A stretch of DNA of 64,000 nt from Salinicoccus sp. Bachu38 (GTDB lineage Bacteria; Bacillota; Bacilli; Staphylococcales; Salinicoccaceae), in assembly GCF_038561955.2 (NCBI RefSeq), contig NZ_CP138333.2, positions 372,001-436,000 on the forward strand. Reading direction: 5' to 3'. Both the position numbers and the translations under genes were made by a program. The notes beneath the pieces are model-generated. The model saw only the letters and a list, made by a program, of their open reading frames with translations. It was not told the origin of the DNA and made no database searches. Shown in pieces: positions 1,740-19,171 of this stretch (position 1 is the first letter of the stretch; each line of letters begins with the position of its first letter).

Positions 1740-1925
1740 ATTATGGTAAAATGACTATAATTATTAACTTTTGGGAGGTGACTACAATTGGGAAGGCGGA
1801 TTTGAAATTTCATGTGCCGACTGAGATGTTAAAGAATAATCGTTACCCTGTTTCAGAAAGCACTTTACGCGAAAATTGTAGTCATATATTACCGGAGGTG
1901 AATCCCTTCTAGACAAGGGAACTAA
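1740..1925 (+). promoter_or_regulatory. Promoter and structured leader of the CNNM/CorC gene
   Basis: The 327 bases between the degV stop and the next gene hold no convincing gene. An extended -10 (TGGTAAAAT, 1745-1752; written TG-n-TAAAAT) has no clear -35. The leader then contains an 11-bp perfect inverted repeat, TGACTACAATT at 1779-1789 and AATTGTAGTCA at about 1874-1884, enclosing some 85 bases in which a CTGAGA/TTTCAG helix can also form. Two GGAGGTGA boxes lie at 1774-1781 and 1893-1900, and neither serves the downstream gene. A small hairpin TCCCTT-CTAGAC-AAGGGA (about 1903-1920) holds the likely ribosome-binding site AAGGGA of the CNNM gene in its 3' arm. It looks like a cis-acting RNA. 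I could not match it to M-box, yybP-ykoY, T-box or ydaO consensus motifs. Confidence 0.5.
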
Positions 1926-3257
1926 TTGGACATAACCACGATATGGAACTTAACTTTATTTGTAATTCTTATAGTACTCACAATGCTTTTTGTAGGATCT
2001 GAATTCGCACTCGTCAAAGCAAGGCTTTCCCGCATCGATCAGCTCATTGAAGAAGGAAACAGGAAAGCGCGCCGCGTGCGCAAGATGACGTTGGAACTCG
2101 ACTACTACCTGTCCGCATGCCAGCTGGGCATTACTGTAACTGCCCTTGGTCTCGGCTGGATCGGGGAGTCGACTTTCGAAGTCGTACTGCACCCTCTTTT
2201 TGAACTGGTGGGGATACCCGACCAGTTGACGACGGTATTGACCGTGGCGCTGGCATTCATCATCGTCACCTTCATCCATGTTGTCGTCGGCGAACTTGCA
2301 CCAAAGACAGTCGCAATCCAGTATGCTGAAAAATTGGCATTGATACTTTCAGGACCACTGTATTTCTTCGGAGTCATCATGAAACCACTGATCTGGACGA
2401 TGAACGGTGCAGCAAGATTCCTCGTCAGACTCGTCGGATTCAAGGATGTGCCCGTTGAACAGGCCCACTCGGAAGATGAGCTTAAGATTATAATGACACA
2501 AAGTTATCAAAGTGGAGAAATAAATCAGACAGAACTGGCATACATGCAGAACATCTTTTCCTTCGACGAAAGGCTGGCAAAGGATATCATGGTGCCAAGG
2601 ACACAGATGGTCACACTGACGGACCCTGTAAATATCGAGGATGTACTGGAGAACGTCAAGGAGCATAACTATACCCGCTATCCCGTTACGGAGGAAAGTG
2701 GGGACAAGGACCAGATCATAGGATTCCTGAATGTCAGGGAATTCCTGACAAACCACGTATCCGATGAGGAAGTCACTCCGGAGGATCACATACATGAAAT
2801 ACCGATGATCACCGAAGTCTCACGCATCAGTGATGCACTGGTCAAAATGCAGCGTGAGCGTGTGCATATCGCACTCATCATCGACGAGTACGGCGGTACA
2901 GCTGGTATGATCACGATGGAGGATATCCTTGAAGAGATCGTCGGAGAAATCAGGGACGAATTCGATGAGGACGAGGAACCTGATATCGTCAAGGTCGAGG
3001 ATGACATCTATCATATAAATGGACGCGTACTGCTCGATGACCTCAATGAGCAATTCGATATCACATTCGACAACAGTGATGACATCGATACCATCGGCGG
3101 ATGGCTGCAGAGCATCAATACCGATATCGAAACGGACGACTATGTCAACACGGACGAAGACAAATGGATCGTACTCGACATGGACAGCCACCTGATCAAA
3201 CAGGTGGCGCTGCTCAAAGGCTATAACCAGTCGAATGGTGATGAAGAAGAGGAATAA
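1926..3257 (+). CDS. CNNM/CorC family membrane protein with CBS pair (putative Mg2+ exporter)
   Basis: A 443-residue protein with an N-terminal CNNM (DUF21) membrane domain of about four helices (residues 1-190; [25 protein letters not shown]), a CBS pair (about 205-335; DIMVPRTQM and [23 protein letters not shown]) and a C-terminal CorC_HlyC domain (about 350-430; [20 protein letters not shown]). Family members such as MpfA of S. aureus and YhdP-type proteins of Bacillus are linked to Mg2+ or Co2+ efflux; the older name is hemolysin. The start is TTG at 1926, directly after an in-frame TAA, so no upstream start is possible. Its ribosome-binding site AAGGGA lies in a hairpin, which suggests translational control. 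Substrate and direction of transport are family inference. Confidence 0.9.
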
Positions 3258-3291
3258 AATAGAACCCCACAGAGTGGGGTTCTATTTTTAT
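3258..3291. terminator. Bidirectional terminator between CNNM gene and helicase gene
   Basis: Stem AGAACCCCAC / GTGGGGTTCT with loop AGA is followed by ATTTTTA on the plus strand and preceded by an A-run that serves the minus-strand gene. The minus-strand stop codon sits at its right edge. Confidence 0.9.
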
Positions 3292-6167
3292 ACATGCGTA
3301 CCGGATTCCAGGTATTTGTATAAATCATAATCGATTGCTCTTTCCATCATCATATTCATTGTCACTACAGGTTTGCCCGTTCCATCATTCATTCTGGCCT
3401 CCTCAAGTGTCCGATAATCGATATGGCCTTCCCCAAGGTAGTAGAATGTGGATCCCTCGTCATCGTCCTTCTTGACGAAAATATGGATGGGGACCCCCTG
3501 TTTGTGTGCTTGGAGTATGGCTTTGATCTCTTTGGACTCGAGTGTACGGTTGCTGCGGGTGAACCATTTGAGCGTATTCAGGTCGAGGAACTGGTCCTCG
3601 TATCTGATGGTGTCTTCAATCTCCTCGTCCTTGTGATAGGTGATGAATATCGGGCAGGTCCCGTGCTTGTATTTGTACCCGTACAATGTGGAGGACTCAT
3701 CTCTATCCCAGTTGAGGAGACGGCAGACATCCTTCCGGGAATATTTGCGATTGATTGTCAGAGGCTTCGACTGGTCATAGGTTTTGCTGAGGGCAAGGGA
3801 CAGTTCCACCACTTGAATGATGTGCTCCCTGATCACAGGGTTCTCCAGTGCACTGGAAAATGTACTGGAAGGGTGGATAAAGTCATCTGCAACTTCAATG
3901 AGCGGACCGCCATATTTCTTCAAATCCTGCTGTGTGTGGAAGGCGTGGGTGAGGGTGCTAAGGACCGAATGCATCGTATCATCGGTCATATGATAGCCCC
4001 GTCTATGCATATCCAGCTGAAACTCTTTCATATTGACCGGAGATTCAATGACCTGCTGCAGCAACAGGGTTTCATGGATACGCTTGCCATCGGCAACTTC
4101 CTTGGACAGGAAAGTCAGAACCTGATGGTCATTCTCTGAAATGGCCAGATCCCTTTCTTTGATCTTTACCAGAAACTCCAGATAATGGCTGTATTTATGC
4201 AGGATCACCAGTGGATCGATGACGTCCGTATCATCATGAAAATCGATGAGCGCCGGAAGTCTGCCGATCTTATTTTTCAGGTACAGGTGCATTTCCTTCA
4301 GGAAGCTCTGGTTATTGAGTGTCGTTGTACTGATGGAGCTGTATATCTTTTCTTTGGCGATCGATTCGAAGTTGATGGTGGAGACGCCGCTGATTGCATT
4401 ACGGTCTATCAGGGATTTCCTGAGCCTGTCCTTGTTGTAGGATCTGTCGCCTGTGAGGGCGATGGGAATCATGTAGTTGTTCCTGTAGTTGCCGATGAAG
4501 TCGATGACCGTCAGGTATTCCTTTTCATCATGCTTTCTGAGCCCCCGGCCAAGCTGCTGGATGAAGATGATGCTCGACTGCGTCTGGCGCAGCATGACCA
4601 CCTGGTTGATGGAAGGGATGTCGACGCCTTCATTGAATATGTCCACCGTAATGATGTAATCGAGCCGCCCATTTTCCAGTTCCCTGACCGTCTGCTGGCG
4701 CACTTGCTGGGAGTCATCACCGGTCAGTGCCCGCGTTCTGTATCCCCGCATATTCAGCGCCTGGCTGAGTTCTGCAGCTTCCCTTCTGTTGGACACGAAC
4801 ATCAGCCCCTTGAGTGCCTCGCCGGAATGTCCGTAGTATTCGATCTTTTCCATCAGATGTGCGACCCGTTCATTGCTCGTCAGCTGTCCGAGTGCAGTCG
4901 TATCGTCGATGACTATGCCGTCCTTTTCGTAGTCGGTGACGCCGAAGTAGTGGAAGGGTGCCAGAATCTCCTCTTCCAGTGCCTGCTGGAGGCGGATTTC
5001 ATAGGCGATGTTGTAGTCGAACAGACTGAATATCTCCATGTCGTCCGTCCGTTCAGGTGTAGCGGTCATGCCAAGCAGAAACCCAGGAGTAAAATGACTG
5101 AGGATTTTCGTATATGTCGTCGCACTGGAACGGTGCGCTTCGTCCACGATGATATAGTCGAAGTCATCCGGATTGAACTGCTCCAGATTGGCCGTTTTCG
5201 ATAATGTCTGTACAGTGGCGAAAAGATATTTCGCATCCTCTCTCTTGGTGCTGCCACTGTATATCCCGAATTCTGACGGCGATTCATCAAGAAGACTCGA
5301 AAAGTCGTTCATGGACTTCTCCAGAATCTGCTCCCGATGCGCCAGGAAAAGCATGCGCCCGGGTCTGTACTGCTGTACATCGAATGCCGCCAGGTATGTC
5401 TTCCCCGTCCCGGTGGCGGAGACCACAAGTCCTTTATCCTTCCTGGCTTTCCGCAGGTCGGCAAGCGCCATCAGCGCCTCCTTCTGCATGAGGTTCGGCT
5501 GGATGGCCTGGCCGGTCAGTGCCTTGTGCTGATATCTGGAGCGGTCTTCGATGACCTCCAGTACTTTCCGCTGTTCCGGCTGTTCAACATGGGTCTGTTC
5601 ATACTTCCGGATCCATTCGGCGTCTACAGCCGTGGACTCTTCCCATAACTTTTCGAACTGGCTGTTGAAATGCTGGATGATCGCGCCATTTTCAAGGCTT
5701 GTCAGTTTGAGATTGTATTCGTAGTTCTTTTTCAGTGCAGCATCCGTAAGGTTCGAACTGCCGATGAACATGGAGGAATAATGATCGTTTTGGAAGACAT
5801 ACCCTTTCGCGTGGAATCCTTCCTTATCGGCCACCCTGATTTCAAGGTTCGGTATGTTGAGCAGGGCTTTGAACACTTTGGGCCTATTGAAGTTCAAATA
5901 TGTAGAGGTGATGATCCGTCCGCCCCTGTTCCTTTTCGCAAGTTCGTAGAGTGCCGTCTTCAAAGTTGCCAGTCCGCCTTCAGTAATGAAGGCGACGGAT
6001 ATGGAAAAGGAAAGGCAGCCCTCCATTTCATCAAGCATGGAGGAGAGTACATTCTCCTCTTTGGAGTTGATGATCATACGTGGTGGATGATGGCCGATCT
6101 TGTGTGTGTCCTGGTCCAGGAAACCTCGTTCGTATGCATTCAATAAGTTATTTCTGTTCACTTCCAT
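3288..6167 (-). CDS. PLD-domain superfamily II helicase with DUF3427 C-terminus
   Basis: This 959-residue protein has three parts. A phospholipase D-like domain (about residues 30-180) carries one HxK(x)nD...GSxN motif (HAK at 119-121, then GSSNLTDAAL from 136), as in single-copy HKD nucleases. A DEAD/DEAH helicase core (about 225-600) shows Walker A ATGTGKT at 251-257, DEAH at 342-345, GMTATPERTD, and motif VI QQLGRGLRKHDEK. The remaining 350 residues match the position and style of DUF3427. The family is widespread and poorly characterised; roles in DNA repair or defence have been suggested from domain content only. It stands alone, without an adjacent methylase or specificity subunit, so a classical restriction system is not supported. 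The ATG start has GAGGTGT upstream and an inverted repeat over it. Confidence 0.85.
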   Translation of the reverse strand: MEVNRNNLLNAYERGFLDQDTHKIGHHPPRMIINSKEENVLSSMLDEMEGCLSFSISVAFITEGGLATLKTALYELAKRNRGGRIITSTYLNFNRPKVFKALLNIPNLEIRVADKEGFHAKGYVFQNDHYSSMFIGSSNLTDAALKKNYEYNLKLTSLENGAIIQHFNSQFEKLWEESTAVDAEWIRKYEQTHVEQPEQRKVLEVIEDRSRYQHKALTGQAIQPNLMQKEALMALADLRKARKDKGLVVSATGTGKTYLAAFDVQQYRPGRMLFLAHREQILEKSMNDFSSLLDESPSEFGIYSGSTKREDAKYLFATVQTLSKTANLEQFNPDDFDYIIVDEAHRSSATTYTKILSHFTPGFLLGMTATPERTDDMEIFSLFDYNIAYEIRLQQALEEEILAPFHYFGVTDYEKDGIVIDDTTALGQLTSNERVAHLMEKIEYYGHSGEALKGLMFVSNRREAAELSQALNMRGYRTRALTGDDSQQVRQQTVRELENGRLDYIITVDIFNEGVDIPSINQVVMLRQTQSSIIFIQQLGRGLRKHDEKEYLTVIDFIGNYRNNYMIPIALTGDRSYNKDRLRKSLIDRNAISGVSTINFESIAKEKIYSSISTTTLNNQSFLKEMHLYLKNKIGRLPALIDFHDDTDVIDPLVILHKYSHYLEFLVKIKERDLAISENDHQVLTFLSKEVADGKRIHETLLLQQVIESPVNMKEFQLDMHRRGYHMTDDTMHSVLSTLTHAFHTQQDLKKYGGPLIEVADDFIHPSSTFSSALENPVIREHIIQVVELSLALSKTYDQSKPLTINRKYSRKDVCRLLNWDRDESSTLYGYKYKHGTCPIFITYHKDEEIEDTIRYEDQFLDLNTLKWFTRSNRTLESKEIKAILQAHKQGVPIHIFVKKDDDEGSTFYYLGEGHIDYRTLEEARMNDGTGKPVVTMNMMMERAIDYDLYKYLESGTHV

Positions 6168-18904: not shown

Positions 18905-18933
18905 AAGGGTAGAGTTTTTCAACTGAATACAAT

Positions 18934-19071
18934 CATTCTTTCGGGGCAGGGTGGAATTCCCAACCGGCGGTAAGCTTTGAAGCAAGCCCGCGACCTGCAT
19001 CGTCCCTGACGATGTGGCTGATCCAGTGGAAGTCTGGAGCCGACAGTGAGAGTCTGGATGGGAGAAAGAAT
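18934..19071 (+). ncRNA. FMN riboswitch (RFN element) aptamer
   Basis: The conserved RFN blocks are all present in order: TCGGGGCAGGGTGGAATTCC (from 18941), CAACCGGCGGTAAG, AGCCCGCGA, CCAGTGGAAGTCTGGAG, CCGACAGTGAGAGTCTGGAT and GGGAGAAAGAA. It lies in the 418-base gap before ribD. FMN binding is expected to favour the downstream terminator and shut off the rib operon. Confidence 0.96.
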
Positions 19072-19171
19072 TGCAGAGCGTACTATGGAGACAGGACTAT
19101 TTTTCATGCCTCCATACGGTAGTGCTTATTCAGCATTGTCAGCAATGCTTATTTCTGCATACATTTTTACA

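Follow-up and report, generated by a model that had tools for sequence, protein, structure and literature searches.

A proposed translated leader with a second reading frame kept open and a hairpin-shortened ribosome-binding site upstream of CNNM/CorC exporter genes in Bacilli

What does a structured stretch of RNA do in front of a metal transporter gene when it resembles no known riboswitch? This question was raised by positions 1740-1925 of the window, the 64,000-nucleotide stretch of Salinicoccus sp. Bachu38 (contig NZ_CP138333.2) that was analysed; coordinates are those of the window, and features lie on the plus strand unless otherwise stated. The gene that follows (1926-3257) starts with UUG and encodes a protein with the Pfam domain order CNNM-CBS-CorC (PF01595, 7.4e-51; CBS; PF03471). 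It is an orthologue of MpfA of Staphylococcus aureus, which protects against, and is needed at, high Mg2+ (PMC5122736, PMC6711546), and S. aureus mpfA (SA0657) and the CNNM paralogues of Bacillus subtilis have been described as orthologous (PMC5122736, PMC8844918). A link of the leader to metals is reasonable because the S. aureus orthologues protect against high Mg2+, while metal sensing by the leader itself would be conjecture. On the far side of the exporter gene, the minus strand encodes a large helicase/nuclease-like protein of 959 residues (3288-6167) with PLD-like, ResIII, helicase C and DUF3427 domains.

The region was re-read to check each sequence feature that the sequence-only reading had named. 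Its 11-bp perfect inverted repeat was found at 1779-1789 and 1874-1884 with 84 nt separating the arms, its two GGAGGTGA boxes at 1774-1781 and 1894-1901, its TCCCTT/AAGGGA pairing at 1903-1908 and 1915-1920, and its five-codon frame from TTG 1788 as TTG GGA AGG CGG ATT TGA. It had overlooked that, between the leader and the second box, the -1 frame relative to this small frame stays open (1790-1912). Upstream of these features, TATGGTAAAAT (1742-1752) is a likely extended -10 promoter element, as TATGrTArAAT recurs at the same position upstream of most Staphylococcales leaders, and the transcript would likely begin near 1759, about 15 nt before the first box.

For comparison, CNNM upstream regions were gathered by protein searches, so that sampling was independent of the presence of the leader. 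Sampling at the levels of genus, family and order, together with a class-wide sample of 78 loci, gave 149 loci in total. Codon statistics of the leader were based on 90 distinct leaders, and the openness of reading frames on 57 distinct Staphylococcales leaders from 10 genera, which are related and do not represent 57 independent events. In addition, 84,980 genomes were scanned for a pattern representing one version of the unit around the second box, and 398 Bacilli genomes were searched for the MerR frame described below.

We found that both boxes have a gene to serve, contrary to the sequence-only reading. The second box (SD2, 1894-1901) is the Shine-Dalgarno (SD) sequence of the exporter gene and is conserved upstream of CNNM genes across Bacilli. 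It is a full match to the anti-SD sequence, and its end at 1901 lies 25 nt from UUG 1926. The hairpin TCCCTT-CTAGAC-AAGGGA (1903-1920), which had been thought to hold the ribosome-binding site, sits instead between the SD and the start codon and shortens the effective distance to about 9 nt. Comparison showed the same unit of a GGAGG-type SD, a spacer-filling hairpin and a start codon at 138 of the 149 CNNM loci and at 70 of the 78 loci in the class-wide sample, with UUG as the start codon in 132 of the 138 units. Among 95 distinct spacers, the linear length ranged from 20 to 49 nt (sd 6.5), while the effective spacing after subtraction of the hairpin averaged 9.7 nt (sd 1.5); 92 of the 95 folded better than their shuffles at P<=0.05. 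The 89 distinct hairpin sequences at the 138 loci were mutually unrelated, as illustrated by TCCCTTCTAGACAAGGGA, CCCCTGTTTAGGGG, AGTCTTACTTTAGTAAGACT and ACCTTAATTCAGCGATGGATTAAGGT beside 85 others, and native arms formed 4.9 of 5 outer pairs compared with 3.0 after arm swapping (38 distinct arm pairs). AAGGGA was also considered as the SD of the exporter gene and was ruled out; relatives carry GGGG, CGGG, GTAAGACT, ATTAAGGT and others in its place, and it is kept only as the 3' arm of a pairing.

Nearly all matches of the pattern scan were upstream of CNNM genes, and in tandem pairs both copies were often preceded by a match. Among other ORFs of the same DNA, manual inspection showed a chance arrangement of SD, hairpin and start at about 10 of some 880 (about 1%). 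Nine of the sampled loci hold tandem CNNM genes with one SD-hairpin-TTG unit each (L103, L104, L109, L125, L138, L141, L144, L146 and L150). At three loci from another family of the same order (f3; L093-L095), the CNNM genes start with ATG and have no spacer hairpin. Because the unit recurs before CNNM genes with a constant effective spacing and with its pairing, not its sequence, maintained, the second box is almost certainly the SD of the exporter and the hairpin an element that shortens the spacer, as in genes 38 and 25 of phage T4. The CNNM sites share the features that define the split sites of these two genes: an SD too distant in the linear sequence, a spacer occupied by a hairpin, and an effective spacing near the optimum.

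The first box (SD1, 1774-1781) ends 6 nt before TTG 1788, and a GGAGG-type core lay 6-10 nt from the leader start codon among the 90 distinct leaders. The frame that it serves (1788-1805) encodes MGRRI and was present in all 12 genomes of the genus, with synonymous changes (AGA, CGA/CGT, ATC). Comparison with further genera showed an MGR-x(-x) frame closed by TGA, TAA or TAG: MGRRF, MGRQF and MGRCI in other Salinicoccaceae, and MGRI, MGRM, MGRS, MGRP, MGRR and MGRL in Staphylococcus, Mammaliicoccus and Macrococcus, including MGRR in S. schweitzeri (L179), which is close to S. aureus. In the 57 Staphylococcales leaders this zero frame ends at codon index 4-5, or at 9 in a single case, and longer MGR forms occur in genera beyond those just named. 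Of the 90 distinct leaders, 84 have GGA as codon 2 and 89 have AGG as codon 3; therefore, even silent positions are nearly fixed. At ten Paenibacillus loci (L233-L236, L238-L240, L115, L149 and L164), many of which read TTG GGT AGG with a -1 frame that stops at once, a zero-frame peptide of 13-16 codons, MGRRYCKLSKWRI(KVE), is kept instead.

The leader and the split site do not always occur together. In two Salinicoccaceae genera (g2 and g5) and one Macrococcus lineage, the leader is missing while SD2 and the hairpin are retained. The MGR leader is likewise absent, with SD2 and the spacer hairpin kept, at L071, L072, L119, L147, L166 (Macrococcus bovicus group), L063, L064 and L066, so the two elements are separable. 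Such loci, and the full anti-SD match of SD2, are what would be expected if the leader were a vestige without a present regulatory role, CNNM translation needed only SD2 and its hairpin, and SD1 and the stem described next at most tuned mRNA stability. We consider this improbable, as the zero-frame ORF, its codons 2 and 3, the stem and the openness of the -1 frame have been kept across 10 genera whose leaders are otherwise unalignable.

The inverted repeat forms a stem, P1, with TGACTACAATT (1779-1789) as its 5' arm and AATTGTAGTCA (1874-1884) as its 3' arm; the 5' arm overlaps SD1, and P1 covers the leader start codon. An inverted repeat of 11 bp arose in none of 500 shuffles of 1740-1925, whereas the folding energy of the whole leader was unremarkable (MFE z = -1.3). 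When compared across genera, native arms paired with a mean energy of -18.2 kcal/mol against -13.8 with the 3' arms of other genera. When each genus was represented by a single sequence, deranged pairings had a mean of -15.2 and a best value of -17.3, never reaching the native range (worst -17.6). We take P1 to be maintained by evolution because native arms outpair arms exchanged between genera. The claim of a structured leader before the CNNM/CorC gene was thus borne out in that the leader is conserved among relatives, contains covarying pairing, lies outside Rfam and includes a five-codon ORF.

The further suggestion, that the leader is a metal-binding riboswitch or holds another aptamer, did not hold up in the same way. 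P1 is conserved and adjoins a metal-transporter gene, and a hairpin (P2) competes for the 3' arm of P1 in five genera (g6, g7, g10, g12 and g14). The leader, however, had no Rfam match at gathering or at permissive thresholds, and none of 4227 Rfam families, M-box, yybP-ykoY, ydaO and T-box among them, matched it by covariance models at or near the gathering score; the search there gave only a chance miRNA match (E = 0.17) at 1600-1632 on the other strand. Moreover, the part enclosed by P1 varies in length and is conserved not as RNA but as an open reading frame, and sequestration of SD2 is not conserved. The riboswitch idea is not supported by these results and we regard it as very improbable, while the idea of a leader peptide was partly right. 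An FMN riboswitch (Rfam RF00050, 113.8 bits) is present elsewhere in the window (18933-19073).

Alternative structures were also considered. P2 was rejected as a universal competitor of P1, being missing in the genus of the window (P about 0.7). MFE prediction showed a possible extension of P1 in which ACTTTTGG (1767-1774) pairs with CCGGAGGT (1892-1899), a lineage-specific arrangement found in part of the genus and in g4 and missing in other genera. In the species of the window, this modelled helix would mask SD2 and would be opened by translation of the leader. A switch that sequesters SD2, whether through P1 and P2 or through the upstream ACTTTTGG, was rejected as lineage-specific only. When folding was repeated for 10 genera with a ribosome on the leader, SD2 accessibility did not change consistently (mean 0.43 to 0.42). 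As the accessibility is inconsistent and the masking helix lineage-specific, no conserved SD2 switch is claimed. No terminator was predicted in the leader on the plus strand.

We then compared the three reading frames between the leader and SD2, and it was the -1 frame that proved to be kept open. It was free of stops from the leader to SD2 in 51 of the 57 distinct Staphylococcales leaders, and the other six stop just before SD2; frames 0 and +1 were open to SD2 in 0/57 and 1/57, and shuffles led us to expect about 0.1 per leader. In the window, this frame encodes GKADLKFHVPTEMLKNNRYPVSESTLRENCSHILPEVNPF* (1790-1912) and ends at a stop (1910-1912) in the loop of the hairpin that occupies the SD2-start spacer. 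The peptide sequence is not conserved among Staphylococcales leaders, and openness alone is kept. The frame was also open where it has no evident start of its own: 26 leaders from 7 genera lack ATG, GTG and TTG in the first 8 codons, and in 26/26 the frame was open up to the first possible start (expected 0.25 each).

The -1 frame might be entered by termination and reinitiation, with ribosomes finishing MGR-x and restarting at a start codon that overlaps or lies near the stop (TTTGA, ATGA, TAATG). Suitable overlaps were found in Salinicoccus (TTG/TGA, TTTGA), in g3 (ATG or CTG/TGA) and in Planococcus (TAATG, TGATG), and reinitiation could serve in Planococcus and Salinicoccus, which counts against frameshifting there. 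They are missing, however, in Staphylococcus, Mammaliicoccus, Macrococcus and g6 (TTTAG, CATAA and TTTAA contexts), and six of the 26 leaders have no ATG, GTG or TTG anywhere in the open frame. Reinitiation as the general route is therefore unlikely, and the genus g55, described below, presents it with a further difficulty. Two other ways of starting the -1 frame were rejected. The codon one position upstream is ATT, GTT, CTT, TTT or AAT depending on the taxon, with no common start; an upstream -1-frame ATG or GTG in Domibacillus, Jeotgalibacillus and one other lies only 1-2 nt past the SD and is missing in g55.

What the frame probably once encoded was indicated by loci outside the genus of the window. 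In Planococcus, Planomicrobium, Domibacillus and Jeotgalibacillus, at a second CNNM locus of a Macrococcus genus (L096, in g10) and elsewhere, reading on in the -1 frame from GGG AAG gives a MerR-family regulator of about 124-133 codons that ends at the SD of the CNNM gene. Its product matched MerR_1 (PF13411) at 1.8e-17 in Domibacillus and 9.7e-17 at the Macrococcus paralogue locus. In the Planococcus group, the ATG of merR overlaps the leader stop (TAATG/TGATG). A palindrome, AAACCATnACGTnATGGTTT, or its half, ACTGTATGGTTT, lies just upstream of MerR-type leaders (L096 at about 1038-1065, L158 upstream of the CNNM gene, and the L102-L210 group) and is a candidate operator of this MerR protein. 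Decay of merR with the frame still largely open was seen at L226 and L194. At a locus of Aquibacillus koreensis (L189, 6062, minus strand), the MerR frame is interrupted after 32 codons in an apparently decaying copy. Seen in this series, the leaders of Staphylococcales appear to stand at the end of a path of merR decay. The ORF of the window appears to be only a positional remnant of a merR gene because its 41-residue product had no Pfam match.

The most informative case was the genus g55 (family f19), represented by nine genomes. Comparison showed that its MerR frame has no start of its own. A TGA within the SD of the leader (GGAGG-TGA), 9 nt upstream, closes the frame; no ATG, GTG or TTG appears in it before codon 40 or 55, which is past the DNA-binding domain, and all 128 codons are intact. 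The pN/pS ratio was 0.18 in the -1 frame (0.095 in its first 30 codons) and 1.5 in frame 0; the MerR frame is under purifying selection and the overlapping zero frame is not. The sole initiation site within reach is the SD followed by UUG GGA AGG, which opens the zero frame. The g55 locus thus presents what characterises a programmed -1 frameshift, namely a conserved frame without its own start that overlaps an initiated frame. A -1 shift at GGA-AGG is predicted to yield Met-Gly-Lys-Ala-Leu-Leu-Arg-Ile-Gly..., a normal MerR N-terminus. Reinitiation accounts poorly for this locus, where the zero frame continues for 30 codons and merR offers no start codon for 40-55 codons.

The MerR overlap also bears on whether the MGRxx peptide itself stalls as a nascent chain, in the manner of an attenuator, with the open -1 frame a by-product of merR ancestry. 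MGR is conserved, and long versions of the type MGRRYC-L-KWRN occur in Paenibacillus and Domibacillus. The conserved long peptide was nevertheless rejected as a stalling peptide, since MerR coding in the other frame overlaps and accounts for it in Domibacillus, Jeotgalibacillus and similar genomes. In Staphylococcales, merR has decayed beyond recognition and openness persists. We strongly doubt this explanation and favour entry into the -1 frame by slippage.

The putative shift site is G_GGA_AGG (1790-1796), where pairing would move from GGA to GGG and the next codon would be AAG. The motif (A/T)TG-GGA-AGG was near-invariant among the 90 distinct leaders, and the SD core lies 9-13 nt from codon 2, as for an upstream SD that stimulates shifting (about 10 nt). 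G_GGA_AGG does not, however, match the recognised efficient slippery motifs (Z_ZZN or X_XXZ_ZZN), and it is not a known good -1 site because G_GGN tetramers are barely or not prone to frameshifting in Escherichia coli (PMC4066793). Several Paenibacillus leaders have GGT AGG at the site with a -1 frame that closes at once, which counts against frameshifting, and in several long leaders outside Staphylococcales the -1 frame is not open all the way to SD2.

Taken together, we favour a translated two-frame leader joined to a split ribosome-binding site, in which the -1 frame is entered by slipping and the leader outlived the merR gene, and we give this reading a probability of roughly 0.6. Ribosomes would initiate at SD1 on UUG 1788. 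Those that remain in the zero frame would make MGRRI and stop, whereas a fraction, on reaching GGA-AGG (codons 2-3) about 9-12 nt beyond SD1, would shift by -1 and translate about 40 codons through P1, up to the stop at 1910-1912 in the spacer between SD2 and the CNNM gene. SD2 and the spacer hairpin would then position a ribosome, either this one or a new one, on UUG 1926. The -1 product would be the MerR-family regulator in related Bacilli; in Staphylococcales, including the genome of the window, merR would have been lost and the open frame would stay to carry ribosomes to SD2. That the frame stayed open after the loss of merR would most likely be explained by a coupling of -1 translation to initiation on the CNNM gene, and we infer that the arrangement serves control of the exporter. 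A bolder version, in which Mg2+ or polyamines would modulate slippage at GGA-AGG and thereby exporter levels through the split site, and through MerR where it is kept, is tentative and on balance unlikely. The mRNA of mpfA is raised in S. aureus without the RNA helicase CshB, an effect that would fit, but does not prove, a step involving RNA structure.

In the literature covered, to which subscription journals contributed little, no leader or frameshift for mpfA or CNNM genes was found, and text searches of mpfA papers showed mention of neither a leader, nor a frameshift, nor a split ribosome-binding site. Neither the class-wide spacer-hairpin site of CNNM genes nor the predicted -1 frameshift leader, which would make MerR in some Bacilli, was found described before. 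The control of Mg2+ exporter expression is a largely unknown field. Our reading predicts a programmed -1 frameshift at codons 2-3 that is spread over Bacilli and lies upstream of mpfA in staphylococci. It also predicts a family of regulator genes that gene finders would be expected to mis-start or miss because there is no in-frame start codon. To our knowledge, a site of the SD-hairpin-start type has so far been known only from phage T4, and the CNNM genes would provide a natural example across a whole class.

In dnaX, a -1 frameshift is stimulated by an upstream SD. Like dnaX and IS elements (PMC4066793, PMC5009743), the leader would combine a -1 product from an overlapping frame with an early zero-frame stop as the alternative, and it has a purine-rich SD about 10 nt upstream. 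It differs in that the shift would occur at codons 2-3, right after initiation, so that the stimulating SD is the initiating SD, and in that G_GGA_AGG is outside the efficient E. coli motifs. With mgtQ of Salmonella and other leader ORFs of Mg2+ transporters, it shares a very short ORF that overlaps alternative stems. However, mgtQ acts at low Mg2+ to promote an importer by way of acidic codons that destabilise the ribosome (PMC8092293), whereas MGRxx has no acidic codons, the downstream gene is that of an exporter, and openness is maintained in a second frame. Antizyme is a conceptual analogue, in which frameshifting could control cation balance (PMC5009743), and a cation-responsive leader would be its bacterial counterpart in logic; antizyme, however, uses a +1 shift and is a eukaryotic polyamine sensor (PMC5009743), and sensing by the CNNM leader would be conjecture. 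The closest likeness of the split site is to T4 genes 38 and 25, in which a hairpin between the SD and the start codon cuts an over-long spacing from 22 to 5 nt and from 27 to 11 nt, respectively, and is required for efficient initiation (PMC3014915). Among T4-like phages, the gene 25 hairpin is found only in close T-even relatives (PMC3014915). The predicted CNNM unit differs in belonging to a chromosomal gene family, in using UUG starts and in recurring class-wide with 89 hairpin sequences.
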